Shown piece after piece: positions 41,953-47,422 of a stretch of DNA of 47,422 nucleotides (position 1 is its first letter; the number at the start of each line of letters is the position of its first letter). The position numbers and the translations under genes are program-made. The notes beneath the pieces are model-generated. The model made no database searches. It worked only from the letters and a program-made list of their open reading frames with translations, and was not told the DNA's origin. Source of the stretch: an uncultured Cytophagales bacterium (GTDB taxonomy: Bacteria; Bacteroidota; Bacteroidia; Cytophagales; Thermonemataceae); contig CALLAC010000027.1 of NCBI GenBank assembly GCA_938002655.1, positions 1 to 47,422 of the forward strand, read 5' to 3'.

Positions 41953-42185
41953 ACTTACTTTCCAATGCAAAAAGTAACAAAACTTGATAATCAATTTTTT
42001 ACGAAAAAAAGGTACAAATAAGGTACGAAAGTATTGTATTTTACTGCATATTTAAGTTTTTTCTCTGAAATATTCTTAATAAATAATAAATTTATTATCA
42101 CGAAAATAAACAAATTGCTTTCGGTTGCCTTTTTTGCCTACAAAATACCAGCAACGCCCTTTCCTGTTTTTCCAATTTACATAAG
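41953..42185. other. AT-rich junction between core chromosome and mobile element
   Basis: This 233-nt stretch has no supported gene. It contains AGGTAC twice within 18 nt (near 42010-42025), a 16-bp palindrome (42083-42098, ATAATAAATTTATTAT) and an inverted repeat TTCCAATT/AATTGGAA (42170-42177 with 42188-42195) overlapping the stop codon of the next gene. The element boundary should lie here, but I cannot identify an attachment site. Confidence 0.5.
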
Positions 42186-42827
42186 TCAATTGGAATTTGC
42201 TTTTTTTTTATTATTTTCATTTGATAGTATAAGCGTTACATTGTCAGGGTCTTTTGCTTTGATGCGAAAAAATACTTTGGTCCGTTTGTGCTCAAAACCT
42301 TGTGAAATAAGCTGTTTCGCATAAAAAGAGCCTTTCCAATTTTTCAAAGAGTTTGCGTACTTTGCGAACCTACTCGCATAAATGATAAAAAAAGGTCTAT
42401 CTTTAAAGATAGATGGGGGTATTTCATTGTAAGAAAGGACTTCTGGGTATCTCTTTGCAAGCCGTGCAAACCACTTTGTCGGCTTACCTTTGAAAGTCTT
42501 TTTTCTGAACCCCGTCATTCTTTCGTTTATGTACGCTTCTTTGCCCCAACCTGTTAGCTTATCCCAATACCTGAATTTTTTGCTACGGCGTTGGCAGTCG
42601 TATAATCCGAAACGGTGCCTTGTATAAAATGAGAAATCTCTTTCATCATAAAAAATAAACCTGCAAAGTTTGCTTGTATTTGGACAAACGAAAAACCAAA
42701 TCTTTTTGCCGTCAAGGTTTGAAGGCTTGTAAGTAATTCTGAATTTGGAACGCCCTTCAAACACAATATAAGCGTTTTCAAAATCTTTTGCGAAAAACCT
42801 CAAAATTGATGCCTCTATATTTGCCAA
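42186..42827 (-). CDS. Mobile-element protein with CPxTxKxCR-type motif, function unknown
   Basis: The open frame has 213 codons from a TTG at 42827; no ATG or GTG is available in frame before the upstream stop. The protein is basic. Its N-terminal part RSKFRITYKPSNLDGKKIWF leads into VCPNTSKLCRFIFY and YDCQRRSKKFRYWDKL, then a positively charged GKPTKWFARL segment. From memory, similar CPxTGKxCRKLY...QTxSKxYR proteins occur in Bacteroidota mobile elements with unknown function. The ATG at 42882 in another frame, in a good leader context, would join this frame if one G were lost from the GGGG run (42828-42831 on the complement). The 5' end may therefore be frameshifted. The first 43 nt lie in a tandem repeat. 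Confidence 0.6.
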   Translation of the reverse strand: MANIEASILRFFAKDFENAYIVFEGRSKFRITYKPSNLDGKKIWFFVCPNTSKLCRFIFYDERDFSFYTRHRFGLYDCQRRSKKFRYWDKLTGWGKEAYINERMTGFRKKTFKGKPTKWFARLAKRYPEVLSYNEIPPSIFKDRPFFIIYASRFAKYANSLKNWKGSFYAKQLISQGFEHKRTKVFFRIKAKDPDNVTLILSNENNKKKANSN

Positions 42828-42893
42828 CCCCGTTGCTGGGTTCTTGCAAATACGGGTTCAATATTTTTGCTTTTATTTTCATTTTTTTTGGAT

Positions 42894-42929
42894 GTTTTTT
42901 TAGAGAGTAACTTTAGTAACTTTAGTAAC
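42894..42929 (-). repeat. 36-bp iterated motif, copy A
   Basis: On the minus strand the motif has three GTTACT blocks spaced by AAA (9-nt period), then CTCTAAAAAAAC. It is identical to 43065-43100 (same orientation) and to the inverted copy at 44133-44168. Confidence 0.95.
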
Positions 42930-43052
42930 CTTTTTCAAAGCGACACTTGCGACACTTTTGCGAAAAACCTCAAAATTGATGCCTCTATATTTGCCAACCC
43001 CGTTGCTGGGTTCTTGCAAATACGGGTTCAATATTTTTGCTTTTATTTTCAT
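42900..43052 (-). CDS. Small open frame created across the tandem repeat junction
   Basis: A 50-codon frame starts MKIKAKILNPYLQEPSNGVG and ends KKVTKVTKVTL, the last part encoded by the 9-nt iterations. It starts in repeat unit 2 and ends in unit 1. The same ATG in unit 1 (42882) gives only 34 codons, to 42778. I recognise no family. It may be only the 5' remnant of the neighbouring gene or a leader peptide. Confidence 0.3.
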   Translation of the reverse strand: MKIKAKILNPYLQEPSNGVGKYRGINFEVFRKSVASVALKKVTKVTKVTL

Positions 43053-43064
43053 TTTTTTTAAAAG

Positions 43065-43100
43065 GTTTTTTTAGAGAGTAACTTTAGTAACTTTAGTAAC
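43065..43100 (-). repeat. 36-bp iterated motif, copy B (left arm of inverted pair)
   Basis: Identical to copy A and the perfect inverted partner of 44133-44168. The two arms enclose the DUF6371-like gene and the small overlapping gene. Confidence 0.95.
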
Positions 43101-43221
43101 CTTTTTCAAAGCGACACTTGCGACACTAAATTACCTAAACATTTAGCGTTTGGGGGTGTAATATCTTACAAAATTGTTCAAGGTCCGACATGTTTTCAAT
43201 TGATTTTCAACAAAATCCCTT

Positions 43222-43359
43222 TCAATTGAAAATTATTGTGAAAGCCTTTGCTGTATTTGTAGAGCGTTCGTTGTACTTTATGGGACCTGTTGGCAGTTCA
43301 ATGCTCGCAAAGAACGCTTCAAGTTCGTTTTGCGGGGCTTCATTGGGAGGGGGGTTCAT
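43222..43359 (-). CDS. Small DUF6965-like protein, probably truncated
   Basis: This 45-codon frame starts ATG at 43359, overlapping the last 20 nt of the DUF6371-like gene in another frame. It encodes MNPPPNEAPQNELEAFFASI and ELPTGPIKYNERST, which resemble from memory the N-terminal half of DUF6965 proteins (ELEAFFxGxxLPxxPxxLNxxSTITD). Usual members have about 65-75 residues; here the frame ends at NTAKAFTIIFN. The overlap with the upstream stop suggests translational coupling. It is too short for routine gene calling. Confidence 0.5.
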   Translation of the reverse strand: MNPPPNEAPQNELEAFFASIELPTGPIKYNERSTNTAKAFTIIFN

Positions 43360-44128
43360 TTCTGAACAAACGCCAATCATATTTGATAAGGTAGTCGGCA
43401 AGGGGTGTTTTTGCTAATTCAGAAAAGGTAAAGCGTGCTTTCAATATCTTTTCATATTCTTGTTTTTTACATTCAAACACACACACATTACGCCCCTGTA
43501 ATACTTTCAGTTTGTCAATTGAAAAGCTACCTGCAACCCAAATGAAATTTTCAGGGGGTTCAGGAAATCCAAAGTAAAGAGTTCCATAAACCGCCGTTTT
43601 GGGGTCTTCAACCAATGCAACGGGGTTATTGGGGTATTTGCTTAACAGGTGCTCGCCAAACAAACAGGTATTTTCGTGGTTTTGCAACCCCCTTACATTG
43701 CCTTTTATATCAATGTATGGAAAGGTTGCCCCGCCCGTTGAATTTGTACCGATTAGGTACAACTCAATAACCTTCGTAACATCTTTGACATCAAAAGGGA
43801 AAGGAACGTTTGTAAGCAAGTTCTGAATAAACGTATTCTTTTCATAGTTTTGCAAGGTTTGTTTGAGGGTTTCAAAGTCAAAAACGGGGGCTTTTCTTTG
43901 CAGTGGTTTCAAAAAACCTTGTTCCTGTTTCCAAATCATTTTAGCATACCCATCTTTGTACGGGTTGAGGTGGTACCTGCAATTGTGTTCACGGTCGCAC
44001 CTCCCATATTTTTCGGGTAAATAGTCGTTTGTTACCGTATCAATGTACCTCACAAACCTTTTTTTACCGCATTGTGGGCAAATGAATTTTCTACTGCCCG
44101 CCTCTAATGTATATCTGTATGTACTCAT
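43340..44128 (-). CDS. DUF6371-like zinc-ribbon, primase-related protein
   Basis: This 262-residue protein has an N-terminal zinc ribbon with C17, C20, C44 and C50 (FICPQCGKKRFVRY...GRCDREHNCRYH). This matches, from memory, the start of DUF6371/PG0870-type proteins of Bacteroidota mobile elements. The middle and C-terminal parts resemble a Toprim-like primase core: TFPYIDIKGNVRG, then VALVEDPKTAVYG, whose Glu is at the Toprim position. The later acidic motif is VCVFECKKQEYEK, where relatives have a PD pair, so catalysis is doubtful. It lies just downstream of the P4-type primase-helicase and is probably part of the same replication module. The 36-bp motif forms its 5' leader. Confidence 0.7.
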   Translation of the reverse strand: MSTYRYTLEAGSRKFICPQCGKKRFVRYIDTVTNDYLPEKYGRCDREHNCRYHLNPYKDGYAKMIWKQEQGFLKPLQRKAPVFDFETLKQTLQNYEKNTFIQNLLTNVPFPFDVKDVTKVIELYLIGTNSTGGATFPYIDIKGNVRGLQNHENTCLFGEHLLSKYPNNPVALVEDPKTAVYGTLYFGFPEPPENFIWVAGSFSIDKLKVLQGRNVCVFECKKQEYEKILKARFTFSELAKTPLADYLIKYDWRLFRNEPPSQ

Positions 44129-44132
44129 AAAA

Positions 44133-44168
44133 GTTACTAAAGTTACTAAAGTTACTCTCTAAAAAAAC
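44133..44168 (+). repeat. 36-bp iterated motif, copy C (right arm of inverted pair)
   Basis: The plus strand carries GTTACT three times at 9-nt spacing, then CTCTAAAAAAAC. It lies in the 47-nt gap between the primase-helicase stop and the DUF6371-like start, 4 nt upstream of that ATG. Confidence 0.95.
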
Positions 44169-44175
44169 TTTTTTT

Positions 44176-46287
44176 TTACTCAATAAATACCGCCAACTGA
44201 TTTTGCGAAACCCTATCTACAACAAAACTTAAAGCCCGTAACTGTTTTATGAAATTGGTCTTTTTAAAAGGTGTTATTCCTTCGTCAGTGCAAAATATCC
44301 TGTATTCCTTATAGAGTTCTTTTATTAGTTTGTATCTTGTTGGACTGCTTTTATATTCGTTTTCGGATATAAACATTTGGACGCTATTACTTTCAATCTT
44401 ATATTGCTCCACTGCTTGGCGTGCGGCTTGGCAATCTGAAAACCTTCCCTGTTCAAGTAATCTATTAAGACCCTCCAAAACCCAATTAAAAACGCCTGAA
44501 AGTTCATTATCAATTATTTTGTTGTGCAGGTTCTTGTCTTGTTCGCTTTCAGGAATAGTAACATCAAAAGGAATAATTAGAAACCTTCTAAAAAAGGCGT
44601 GGGTATGCTCCACGTCTTTTGGCAATTCGTTACAATTGAATATAAGTTTTGCGTATTGTCTCAAAATGAAAGGTTGCCCGTAAGGTAGCCTCGCCTCAAC
44701 GGGTTCGCCTGAAACAAGGTTCTTGAAAAGAGCTGCTTCAAGTTTGTCGTTTATTTCACTTGCATAATTTACTAACTTGTTGGCTATCATAGCTCTATAA
44801 TACCCGCTTTTGTCTGTAAGACTTTGAAGAGAATAACTGCTTACATTTTCCTTACCTAACAAAGCATTTACAACCTCAAAGAATACGCTTTTGCCGTTTG
44901 CACCTGTACCGTACAGAATTAAGGCTTTTTCCTCTTTTAGTACTTTACTCCCGTGTTTTACGAAAATATAGCCCAAATATTCAGCCAAAACTCTTTGGCG
45001 TTCAGGGTCGGGTAATACTCTATTTAAGTACGCTTCAAAAATGGGGGCTTTGGCTTGTGGGTCGTACTCAAATGGCAGTTGGTAGGTAAGAAAATCCGAA
45101 CGGTCAAAAGGTCTTAATTTCGTGCCTTTTGGTCCTACCTCAAATGTTCCGTTTTGTAAGTTTATCAAAACAGTATTGGTATTGCTTTCGGGTGTTGGCA
45201 AATAAGCCGTTGCAATAAATTGTTTAAACAGCTGTTCCCTAAATTGGTAAAACCTTGCTGAAAACATAGCAACGCCCATTTGTTCGGCTGCTTCGCCTAA
45301 AAACTTTTGAAATGTTTCTTTATCAATCTCGGACCAAAAAGCACCGTTGTACAAATAAATAAAATCGTGGTTTTTGCACAAACTCCAATTATTTTTTTCA
45401 GCTACCCGCAACACGTTTTCAATTGATAAAACCAAAAAATTCTTGTGGTTCAATTTCATTTTTTCCAAACTCCTTTGAATATCCTTTGCTTGGTCGCTCC
45501 CTGGTTCAGCTTTTTTCAGTTGCTCCCTTAATTTTTCAACTTTTGGGAACGCTAATGCTTGGAAATCAATAGGTTCTATTTGTTCAAGCAGTTGGCTAAA
45601 TATTTCAGCATGGGGGGTGAGTGTGGGGTTTGTTGTTTTTCGGTTCTCCCCCCTAACATAGTTTAATATAGCTTCGGGAGTGAGGTCGGCAAATGGGGGG
45701 TTCAGTTTCGTTCCCTTGCAAAGGTCGTTTATATTTATTGTAGGTGCTTCGGGTTGGTAAATTGCTTCGGGGTCGTGGCACAAAAAGCAAGCCCTTGCAA
45801 TATCCTTGCAATTGTCAATTTTTATGCCCCATTCATCTGAAAAAAACTTTTCAAAACCCACAAAATAATTCAAATGCTCGGCTTGCGAAGGGTTTATTCT
45901 ATACACAACCTTTAAGCCCGTGCCCGTTGGACTTACAAACATCAATGCGGGGGGTAGTTTTTCCAACAATTTTTCTTTTACCTCCTTAATATTGGTAACG
46001 TCGTCCAAATCCAAACAAAAAAGGTTGGAACGTTCTTTAAGCCCTTCATTACTGCGTTTTGAAAAAACCCCGCTAAATGTAACGTAATCTAATTTTGATT
46101 TTTTTATTTCATTTTGTTTTTCTTTATTCCCTTTCCTTATTGCCTGCGTTACCTCTTTATATTTGTCGCTTTTAATCAGCTCAAAAACCTCCTCCAACGT
46201 TACCGCTTTTTTTGGCAAATTATTTGTTATAGGTGCGAGAAAAAAAGAAAATTCTTTATCTTTGCATTGAGTAGCTTTCATTTTCAT
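44176..46287 (-). CDS. VirE_N (BT4734-like) and P4-type primase-helicase
   Basis: The ATG at 46287 gives 703 residues; a TTG 18 nt upstream is less likely. The N-terminal part (about 45-190) matches the VirE_N/BT4734-like domain: VTFSGVFSKRSNEGLKERSN, LFCLDLDDV, LMFVSPTGTGLKVVYRI and CKDIARACFLCHDPEAIY. The C-terminal part (about 300-690) is a phage/plasmid P4-family SF3 helicase. It has GYIFVKHGSKVLKEEKALIL followed by the Walker A GTGANGKS (460-467), LVNYASEIN, KLIFNCNELP and the RRFLIIPFDVTIPE arginine-finger region. It probably opens and primes the element's own origin. It is the core replication protein of the mobile region. Confidence 0.88.
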   Translation of the reverse strand: MKMKATQCKDKEFSFFLAPITNNLPKKAVTLEEVFELIKSDKYKEVTQAIRKGNKEKQNEIKKSKLDYVTFSGVFSKRSNEGLKERSNLFCLDLDDVTNIKEVKEKLLEKLPPALMFVSPTGTGLKVVYRINPSQAEHLNYFVGFEKFFSDEWGIKIDNCKDIARACFLCHDPEAIYQPEAPTININDLCKGTKLNPPFADLTPEAILNYVRGENRKTTNPTLTPHAEIFSQLLEQIEPIDFQALAFPKVEKLREQLKKAEPGSDQAKDIQRSLEKMKLNHKNFLVLSIENVLRVAEKNNWSLCKNHDFIYLYNGAFWSEIDKETFQKFLGEAAEQMGVAMFSARFYQFREQLFKQFIATAYLPTPESNTNTVLINLQNGTFEVGPKGTKLRPFDRSDFLTYQLPFEYDPQAKAPIFEAYLNRVLPDPERQRVLAEYLGYIFVKHGSKVLKEEKALILYGTGANGKSVFFEVVNALLGKENVSSYSLQSLTDKSGYYRAMIANKLVNYASEINDKLEAALFKNLVSGEPVEARLPYGQPFILRQYAKLIFNCNELPKDVEHTHAFFRRFLIIPFDVTIPESEQDKNLHNKIIDNELSGVFNWVLEGLNRLLEQGRFSDCQAARQAVEQYKIESNSVQMFISENEYKSSPTRYKLIKELYKEYRIFCTDEGITPFKKTNFIKQLRALSFVVDRVSQNQLAVFIE

Positions 46288-46301
46288 TTCAGTTTTTTTG
46301 T

Positions 46302-46477
46302 TCAACGTTCGTTTTGAGTGCCACTTTTTTTTAAGTGGTCTATTAAGTCAATTCGGGAAAAATACAGGCGTTTGCTCGTTTTAGTTTTGTGCTGCCTGTA
46401 AAGGCTACAAATACTTTTTGCATTTGTGCCTGAAAATGCGTATTTTTACCCCGTCCTTTATGCTTAGGGCTGTTCAT
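46302..46477 (-). pseudogene. Small winged-helix-like gene with a probable frameshift
   Basis: From ATG 46477 the frame reads MNSPKHKGRGKNTHFQAQMQ, then VFVAFTGSTKLKRANACIF, and stops at 46343 after 44 codons. The N-terminus resembles, from memory, small HTH proteins next to primases in Bacteroidota elements (FQAQ...V...AF). A -1 shift at the A5/T5 run (46358-46362) would continue as SRIDLIDHLKKSGTQNER and stop at 46302, immediately before the primase gene. The ATG is 5 nt after the stop of the excisionase-like gene. It could be a mutation, a programmed shift, or a genuinely short gene. Confidence 0.4.
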
Positions 46478-46481
46478 TTGG

Positions 46482-46838
46482 TTACTTTCCATTGTTCAGC
46501 CCTTTTTTATTGTTCAAATACGCTTTGGCTTCCTGCTCAATTTCAGCGTTTGACTTTTTACGCCCTTGTTTTATCCAATCAATTATTGTTTGACGGACAA
46601 AATACAAGCGTTTGCCCTGCTTACATACTCCCGGTATTTCATTTCTTGAAACTTTTGAGTATAGCGTTGCCTTTGAGAGGTGCAAAAGTTTTGCAACCTC
46701 ATCAACGCTCAAAAACTGTTCGGGGTGGTCGGTGGGTTGTTCCTGTCTTTCAATTAACAGGCGTTTTAATTCGCTAACTTCTTTTGTTAGCATTGTTACC
46801 GCTTCGGGTAACTTGTCAAATGTTAATACTTGTTCCAT
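46482..46838 (-). CDS. Helix-turn-helix excisionase-like DNA-binding protein
   Basis: This 118-residue protein starts with a predicted coiled coil (LPEAVTMLTKEVSELKRLLIERQEQ, about 9-35), followed by an HTH_17/excisionase-type domain (about 42-95). The domain contains FLSVDEVAKLLHLSKATLYSK, then VSRNEIPGVCKQGKRLYFVRQTIIDWIKQG (core KQGKRLYFVRQTI). Such proteins regulate excision or replication genes of Bacteroidota conjugative and mobilizable elements. Two 14-bp direct repeats in its upstream region (46877-46911) may be its operators. Confidence 0.88.
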   Translation of the reverse strand: MEQVLTFDKLPEAVTMLTKEVSELKRLLIERQEQPTDHPEQFLSVDEVAKLLHLSKATLYSKVSRNEIPGVCKQGKRLYFVRQTIIDWIKQGRKKSNAEIEQEAKAYLNNKKGLNNGK

Positions 46839-46876
46839 TACAAAAGATTTTTTTTATTTCTTTTGCAATGTTCGGT

Positions 46877-46911
46877 GTGGTATTTACGGGTAAAAAGGTG
46901 GTATTTACGGG
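46877..46911. promoter_or_regulatory. Two 14-bp direct repeats, candidate operator
   Basis: GTGGTATTTACGGG occurs at 46877-46890 and 46898-46911, an exact 21-nt offset (two helical turns). They lie between the partial gene and the excisionase-like gene, 39-73 nt before the latter's ATG. Confidence 0.6.
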
Positions 46912-46939
46912 CTTCCTTGTTTCTTAATTTTAGTTGGTT

Positions 46940-47422
46940 TTACCTTGTTAATGCCTTGTATAAATCCCCTTCCGTTTCTTTTTCAAAGTGGCTTAAAACC
47001 CTAATAAGTTGAAAATATTTTGTATCGGTACTTAGTTTATTTTCATTACTCAATTCCTTATGTATTTCGCCTAATGCTTTTGCAACCTTTGTTTTACAAG
47101 TCCTTTTTAGCTGTATTATTGTTTCGGGTAATTTATAGGGTTTGTATTCAAAAAAGTTTGTAAGTAAATCAGTAAACAAATTAAAATCCTGTTCAGAAAC
47201 AAAGGCGTATTTCCAACCTTGTTTATCCATATTTGTAAAGGCTTCGATAATTACTCTCTTTGTCCTGCTTTCGTTTACACTAATCGTTTGAGGTGTATCC
47301 CTTTCATTAAGTTTCTCCCAAAGTGGTGTTTTTAGGTCTTTACTCATTTCTTTGAGTTCCATTGGACTGTATGGGTTGAATGTTTCCAACCATTCATTTT
47401 GCCAATTGATGCACCATTTTAC
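46940..47422 (-). CDS. Conserved mobile-element protein of unknown function, 5' end beyond window
   Basis: The frame is open from the right edge of the window to a stop at 46940, at least 160 codons. The visible part begins VKWCINWQNEWLETFNPYSP. It is a helical, charged protein with no motif I recognise (MDKQGWKYAFVSEQDFNLF, IQLKRTCKTKVAKALGEIHK). No ATG is needed at 47389, where only a TTG occurs, because the frame continues upstream. Its position before an excisionase-like gene fits accessory regulation or replication, but no function can be assigned. Confidence 0.65.
   Translation of the reverse strand, partial: VKWCINWQNEWLETFNPYSPMELKEMSKDLKTPLWEKLNERDTPQTISVNESRTKRVIIEAFTNMDKQGWKYAFVSEQDFNLFTDLLTNFFEYKPYKLPETIIQLKRTCKTKVAKALGEIHKELSNENKLSTDTKYFQLIRVLSHFEKETEGDLYKALTR

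Follow-up and report, generated by a model that had tools for sequence, protein, structure and literature searches.

Inverted iteron-like arrays flanking a DUF6371 gene: a candidate split replication origin in an integrative element of a Cytophagales bacterium

An integrative element at the edge of a Cytophagales contig carries copies of a short triple-repeat array, two of which stand in opposite orientation on either side of a DUF6371 gene. From comparison of sequences we consider it probable that these arrays are iteron half-origins, bound by the predicted winged-helix end of the element's own D5-type replication protein (Rep), and that they constitute an origin split by the 1-kb DUF6371 gene. 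The window, by which we mean the whole stretch of 47,422 nt that was analysed, is contig C27 of a 2.64-Mb genome in 44 contigs.

The element begins in the window at an 18-nt direct repeat, TTACTTTCCAATGCAAAA (41955-41972), which is found again at positions 2009-2026 of contig C11 of the same genome. There it forms the last 18 nt of a host gene that, from its sequence, we take to be mnmE. Because the end of mnmE recurs in this way, a single element seems to be inserted in the mnmE 3' end, with one of its ends running from 41955 to the end of the window and the other occupying the first 2 kb of C11. The part between them is absent from the assembly. C11 carries, in order, a tyrosine integrase gene (int) running off the contig, a gene for an HTH_17 protein (HTHc11) and the host mnmE. 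Along the direction of transcription the element therefore reads HTHc11, int, the gap, HTH_17, rep, DUF6371, a truncated DUF6965-like ORF and a gene of unknown function, g213. Relatives have a gene of variable length between int and HTH_17; that of L098 (related loci carry L numbers), used as a query to bridge the contig gap, had no match in this genome.

The element genes described here for the window lie on the reverse strand. An ORF that leaves the contig end (46940-47422) is followed by the gene for the HTH_17 protein, of the excisionase family (46482-46838), and by rep (44176-46305). Rep combines a BT4734-like N-terminal domain, a D5_N/DUF5906 helicase and a predicted C-terminal winged helix. 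It passes the TIGR01613 model (P4-family primase C-terminal) with 185.4 bits against a cut-off of 108.7, and has a profile match to PDB entry 7ola, named DNA primase (E 4.7e-15). The BT4734-like N-terminal primase domain was matched by tblastn in two of the 80 related loci described below. DUF6371 (43340-44128), which starts with a Zn_ribbon_16 domain, occupies the space between the two half-origins. Its end is overlapped by a small ORF (43222-43401) whose similarity to the first third of DUF6965 is weak (E 3.8e-4, under the Pfam cut-off); DUF6965 is fused to DUF6371 in L076. Relatives of g213 (42186-42827) are equally placed in some related elements. Five window proteins scanned against PHROGs matched primase, excisionase and DNA-binding families, with some weak matches besides. 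No mobilization gene was recognised among the visible element genes scanned, the middle of the element being absent.

The initial annotation had reported perfect 36-bp arms, three blocks per arm at 9-nt spacing and a right arm ending 4 nt from the ATG of the zinc-ribbon gene, and was correct in each respect. Positions 43065-43100 are the exact reverse complement of 44133-44168, and each arm holds GTAAC (GTTAC on the other strand) three times. With two mismatches allowed the arms reach 45 nt. In 200 order-2 Markov copies of 41953-47422 no exact inverted repeat exceeded 22 nt and the longest averaged 14.2 nt, so that the 36-nt repeat is not a product of chance. Two further copies had been overlooked, an identical one at 42894-42929 and one of 35 nt on C11, between HTHc11 and int and 15 nt upstream of the int ATG, bringing the arrays found in the element to four. 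Each has a T-tract (GTTTTTTT in the window, at the start of the arm as first drawn), about 5 nt, and then three 5-nt cores at a 9-nt period, 36-45 nt overall. The three units with this period cover 23 bp.

Such arrays recur in relatives at three places: (a) upstream of int, (b) between rep and DUF6371, and (c) beyond the DUF6371 domain. The putative half-origin at site b in the window, with its T-tract and three GTAAC, is the former right arm (44129-44168, reverse strand); its triple, 44133-44155, lies 20 nt 3' of the rep stop. The former left arm is the first of two candidate inverted half-origins at site c (43065-43104, forward strand; triple at 43078-43100), and the second, also a T-tract with three GTAAC, has the same orientation (42894-42933, forward strand). 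A near-tandem duplication is seen here, with copies of 117 nt at 42785-42901 and 42955-43071 that are 97% identical, and each copy runs into one half-origin. The stretch 42785-43071 thus has a doubled half-origin and a doubled start of a short ORF. L111 and L140 have duplicated half-origins as well, spaced 73 bp at site a of L111 and 83 bp in L140, where they lie downstream of DUF6965. Beside each site-c array in the window there is an extra 9-nt-period pair, GCGACACTTGCGACAC, on the plus strand (42940-42955 and 43111-43126).

Is the array conserved? An integrase-alignment scan of named genomes gave 423 relatives of any similarity, of which the best 80 were kept for comparison. In these 80 loci tblastn found the mnmE end in 74, HTHc11 in 75, HTH_17 in 61, DUF6371 in 45 and the D5 Rep in 20. 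Exact 5-mers in triplicate at a lag of 9 nt number 99 in the 80 loci (1.30 Mb), compared with 1 to 39 at lags of 6-8 and 10-16. The arrays are sometimes within DUF6371. Their cores differ among elements and include GTAAC, TTCAC, GTCAC, CTACA, TGTTACA, GTGCCAC and TGCAA, among others. As judged from these loci the array is a conserved layout, a 5-nt core in three copies with a 9-nt period, mostly in Bacteroidota, with place and relative orientation largely kept. The search for conserved arrays in related elements, as suggested in the initial annotation, therefore finds that place, spacing and mostly orientation are maintained and that sequence is not. An exact-letter search for two GTTAC/GTAAC units with 9-nt spacing, over 40 loci from relatives in the same order, gave none outside this genome and resembled non-conservation, an appearance that fell away because the period replaced the letters as the search criterion. 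A T-run of at least four lies within 18 nt on the 5' side in 42 of 50 hand-listed arrays, on the 3' side in 18 of the 50, and in 575 of 3600 random 18-mers.

In L102 (11749-11930) two iteron sets, of GTAAC/GTTAC and GTACG types, adjoin each other before DUF6371 and are possibly two origins. L192, with a D5 rep whose frame is broken, also has CCACT-type arrays in both orientations. With regard to distribution, an integrase alignment at E 1e-110 matched 8 other genomes out of 395 in a phylum sample. Viral contigs had no match to the DUF6371 protein as query; with the integrase they gave 8 loci, one 79% identical and the others 60% or less. Four plasmid records hold a distant DUF6371. We found no published account of these arrays among open-licence papers, searched by titles and abstract openings.

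Orientation and position in coding sequence bear on whether the arrays might be operators, by which Rep or an HTH regulator would control expression of int and DUF6371. In elements with a D5 Rep (type I, see below) the site-a arrays of 13 elements point in one direction and the site-c arrays of 12 in the opposite one, a contrast that is partly due to shared descent; L134 is an exception with an inverted array at site b. In 12 of the 13 relatives tested the site-c array is inside the DUF6371 ORF, which is not so in the window. GTTAC cores there encode KVTKVTKVT, and GTGAA or GTGAC cores REKREKRE and SDGSDG. Since the cores are read in different codon phases, it seems to be DNA rather than peptide that is conserved. 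Initiators often repress their own operons, and arrays stop 4 nt before the ATG of DUF6371 and 15 nt before that of int. Among type I elements HTHc11 does track the core (rho 0.23, p 0.01). At site b of types I-III (32 elements), however, neither HTH protein does so (rho -0.002 for HTHc11, 0.012 for HTH_17), and the site-c arrays lie within the DUF6371 ORF in most relatives and point the opposite way. We therefore think control of expression an unlikely explanation for the arrays. Since two start codons have an array next to them, the repeated operator and leader of the initial annotation may survive as an additional role, though this leaves the arrays in coding sequence and those 3' of rep without explanation.

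The arrays are associated with rep. The gene before DUF6371 is of at least four types, D5 (I), DUF3987 (II), AAA_25 (III) and one with no Pfam match (IV). The types were assigned by short sequence patterns, and one or two members of each were run against Pfam. DUF3987 and RepA-type ATPases are described, in the relevant passages of PMC5862659, as predicted replicative helicases of mobile elements. Between -60 and +320 nt from the rep stop, a lag-9 triple is present in 9/17, 10/11, 14/15 and 1/3 loci of types I to IV, respectively, in the family sharing this integrase. The corresponding background windows give 24/595, 9/374, 17/520 and 4/102, and the background is 2-4% overall. Other lags in these nearer sets give 2/17 (lag 6) and 3/17 (lag 12) for type I, 2/11 (lag 11) for type II, and for type IV two at lag 8 and 3/3 at lag 13; all remaining combinations of lag and type give none. 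Distant D5 loci, 20 of 35 of which had been inspected when the bounds of the region were fixed, have a lag-9 array in 16 of 34 (background 51/1265), and lags of 6, 7, 8, 10, 11, 12 and 13 give 0, 0, 1, 0, 0, 0 and 1 of 34. This distant set consists of 20 of 26 listed places outside this genome and 15 other D5 loci, with L192 left out (35 to 34) for its broken frame. Most have an integrase that is no more than 50% identical or is not recognised, L085 being an exception at 68%. No array by this criterion lies 3' of rep in 18 of the 34 distant and 8 of the 17 nearer D5 loci.

Four cross-type pairs of similar elements were compared using blastn. Outside an exchanged stretch, L098 (D5 Rep) and L096 (DUF3987 Rep) share 83-95% identity; within it, from 72 nt inside rep up to the start of DUF6371, there is no match. 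In this pair, in L098/L099 and in L097/L113 the exchanged block extends from 40-70 nt inside rep to the DUF6371 start and includes the array, whilst the outer arrays are unchanged. In the fourth pair, L097/L101, the Rep is exchanged, yet L101 has no site-b array. The helicase types (rep genes of L096-L174) have in common one N-terminal segment of approximately 25 residues, the left edge of the exchanged cassette. Cassette exchange explains why the site-b core of L096, L099 and L107 is unlike the site-a or site-c cores. Because elements such as these three retain arrays that do not resemble the core beside their present Rep, arrays can persist as relics, and those considered here may be relics in part.

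We now consider which part of Rep might read the core. Core similarity was correlated with that of seven protein segments: the Rep C-terminus, Rep body, integrase, integrase arm, HTHc11, HTH_17 and DUF6371. The arrays used include the site-b arrays of L136, L146, L132, L162 and L133, taken manually from a strict scan (L133 contributes to no statistic), and exclude one L162 site-c array; L101, L132 and L148 were reassigned to type III on visual inspection. In type I the C-terminal 62 residues of Rep give rho 0.36 (p 0.001, 18 elements), with 0.56 at site a alone (p 0.001, 13 elements) and 0.46 at site c alone, and rank top of the seven segments both overall and at site a; DUF6371 gives 0.31 (p 0.0005). 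At site b of types I-III (32 elements) the values are 0.37 for the Rep C-terminus, 0.34 for the Rep body, 0.22 for the integrase, 0.18 for DUF6371 and 0.15 for the integrase arm. In type II the integrase is slightly above the Rep C-terminus (0.60 versus 0.56), and in type III the Rep body and C-terminus are equal (0.56), with the integrase at 0.51. The combined D5 set of 34 elements gives 0.18 for the C-terminus versus 0.23 for the helicase body; given the body, the partial correlations are 0.07 (p 0.14) for the C-terminus and 0.13 (p 0.02) for an 18-residue recognition stretch. Since the C-terminus tracks the core no better than the body in this set, the reading domain is not separately proven by the correlations.

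The last 70 residues of Rep are modelled as a winged helix with block-mean pLDDT over 90, whereas the rest of Rep is poorly modelled (mean pLDDT of the whole-Rep model 54). The nearest fold is the RFX DNA-binding domain (Z 9.0, rmsd 1.7 Å over 67 residues), followed by the C-terminal part of AsfvPrimPol (8iqi; Z 7.6, rmsd 2.7 Å, 69 residues), a D5-type primase-helicase, and Cdc6/Orc1 (Z 6.4). A Foldseek search with the Rep C-terminus had no match at E 0.001. D5/SaPI-type Reps are reported to bind iterons 3' of their own genes through the C-terminus. On the predicted fold and the parallel with Cch2, discussed below, the Rep C-terminus is likely to be the reader of the array. A residue-to-base code for the recognition helix was considered and is broken by L136 and L160, where the helix resembles that of the window and the cores are TTCAT/TTCAC. 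Nearest-neighbour prediction of cores is unreliable for distant Reps; L184 and L188 have CTACA cores and nearest Reps of TTCAC type.

The integrase, which carries an Arm-DNA-bind_5 domain, could itself be the binder, the arrays then being arm-type sites. Each element end has one array at a distance of about 0.9 kb, and similarity of the arm domain goes with that of the site-a cores (rho 0.36, p 0.03, 13 elements). As noted above, site-b cores of types II and III also follow the integrase, which is the best of the seven segments for the leftover site-a and site-c arrays of those types (0.37, p 0.07, 8 elements). However, just 20 of the 81 loci with this integrase have an array within 160 nt upstream of int, and 16 of the 34 distant D5 loci have arrays 3' of rep despite integrases that are mostly dissimilar or unrecognised. 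Different cores, moreover, accompany integrases that are 81% identical. We judge arm-type sites improbable. The same divergence of cores counts against an invertible segment, one of the possibilities raised in the initial annotation, in which recombination between the arms would flip 43065-44168. The arms are indeed perfect over 36 nt, but the sole recombinase-like gene among the seven scanned is that of the integrase (the middle of the element being absent). In addition, DUF6371 lies downstream of int on the integrase strand in 46 of the 46 relatives that have it, of 81 loci (the 80 and L076), with no piece of DUF6371 on the opposite strand. Inversion is consequently a very remote prospect.

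All ten distant D5 loci that carry a pair of arrays 3' of rep have the two mutually inverted, orientation being judged by eye from the cores. Of the 16 relatives in which the gap between such pairs was measured, 12 have 2-37 nt and the remaining four 208-271 nt. Six of the distant D5 pairs have gaps of 16-37 nt and the other four are those with 208-271 nt, and the six compact pairs measured in the nearer family have 2-17 nt. In L079-L081, which belong to the group with gaps of 208-271 nt, the second array is inside DUF6371 and the inverted array comes first. With L134 they show that the order of the halves is not fixed. Inverted arrays flank DUF6371 in L098, L138 and L160 with gaps of 1080-1088 nt, compared with 1032 nt in the window. 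In L076, L097, L105, L106 and L115 the pair is placed upstream of int and beyond DUF6371, 5412-6408 nt apart. The intervening stretch is thus a gene (1.03-1.09 kb, the window and three relatives) or an operon (5.4-6.4 kb, five relatives). In the window one half is at the usual place 3' of rep and the others are 1.03 and 1.20 kb further on, past DUF6371. No AT-rich region was found between the window halves, where AT content is 60% compared with 62% in the window. Because the same inverted pairs recur compactly in relatives, the locus looks like an origin of a known kind with its halves pulled apart.

Iteron plasmids provide a further comparison, since in these the incA/incC arrays titrate Rep or pair with the origin array. 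Arrays here might serve copy-number or incompatibility control in a similar way, one lying in the origin and the others titrating Rep or pairing with it, a reading compatible with the preferred one. Four arrays in one element exceed the need of a two-set origin, duplicated arrays are present also in L111 and L140, and as Rep would still be the binder the linkage to rep and the cassette data fit equally well. Titration needs no set orientation, yet site-a and site-c arrays of type I are opposed and the paired 3' arrays are consistently inverted. Such control is possible, if somewhat doubtful.

The pair of origin or iteron sites envisaged in the initial annotation is accordingly supported in so far as the arrays are conserved in relatives and adjoin rep; the core sequence itself varies. 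How might a split origin operate? In the excised element Rep would bind two half-origins of opposite orientation and load two helicase rings facing opposite ways, from which replication of the element would start. We suggest tentatively, and with some reserve, that two inverted half-sites work despite a gene or operon between them, one half often lying inside DUF6371, and that the distant rings are matched by DNA looping. On an excised circle the joined ends would have one outer half to each side, some 0.9 kb away, and, if this is true, pairing could depend on excision.

A 2017 review (PMC5704250) discusses how excised mobilizable elements are maintained under the heading 'an unexplored world' and states that no study had been made of their replication. 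Replication of SGI1, at least, has been reported since. The present locus offers a candidate initiator, with a candidate 23-bp site, for elements of a common group found mostly in Bacteroidota, and relatives with exchanged Rep types and cores are natural tests of specificity. Should the split arrangement prove functional, it would mean that origins of this sort can do without two iteron sets closely bracketing a melting region. Reading the locus as a split origin would also give a handle on how a widespread class of elements copies itself.

Several known systems are comparable. Phage P4, a phage satellite, has a P4-family primase-helicase and two iteron regions, ori1 and crr, kilobases apart, one of which consists of two direct repeats of approximately 120 bp. 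The likeness is in the type of primase-helicase and in two separate iteron regions; we know of no 9-nt triples in P4. The nearest named element, by gene names alone, is Tn4555, a mobilizable transposon of Bacteroides, for which the published gene names run in the order TnpA, integrase, TnpC, excisionase, AAA ATPase, DUF6371 (PMC13183296). This resembles HTHc11, int, variable gene, HTH_17, rep, DUF6371, and the contig gap falls where the tnpC counterpart would sit. In contrast to Tn4555 (PMC5704250), no mobilization gene was recognised in the visible part here, and the target is mnmE.

The SaPI/PICI elements have rep followed by an origin of two iteron sets flanking an AT-rich region, according to PMC6092414. 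Shared features would be a Rep, a two-set origin and residence on an integrative element that also encodes an integrase and an excisionase-like protein; in contrast to PICI, the sets here are 1.03 kb apart, with a gene and no AT-rich stretch between. A further parallel is SCCmec, where the C-terminal domain of the D5-family helicase Cch2 is reported to bind a 23-bp site of three 5-nt iterons located 3' of its gene (PMC7581432). Our locus differs from the Cch2 origin so described in having at least an inverted pair of triples in place of three iterons, a different core, and arrays also upstream of int and beyond DUF6371. In common with it there is a D5-type helicase and, directly 3' of the gene, a site with three 5-nt iterons in 23 bp. 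A D5-type Rep, a predicted C-terminal winged helix and iterons directly 3' of rep, the traits of a SaPI/SCC-type replicon, are all found in the element.
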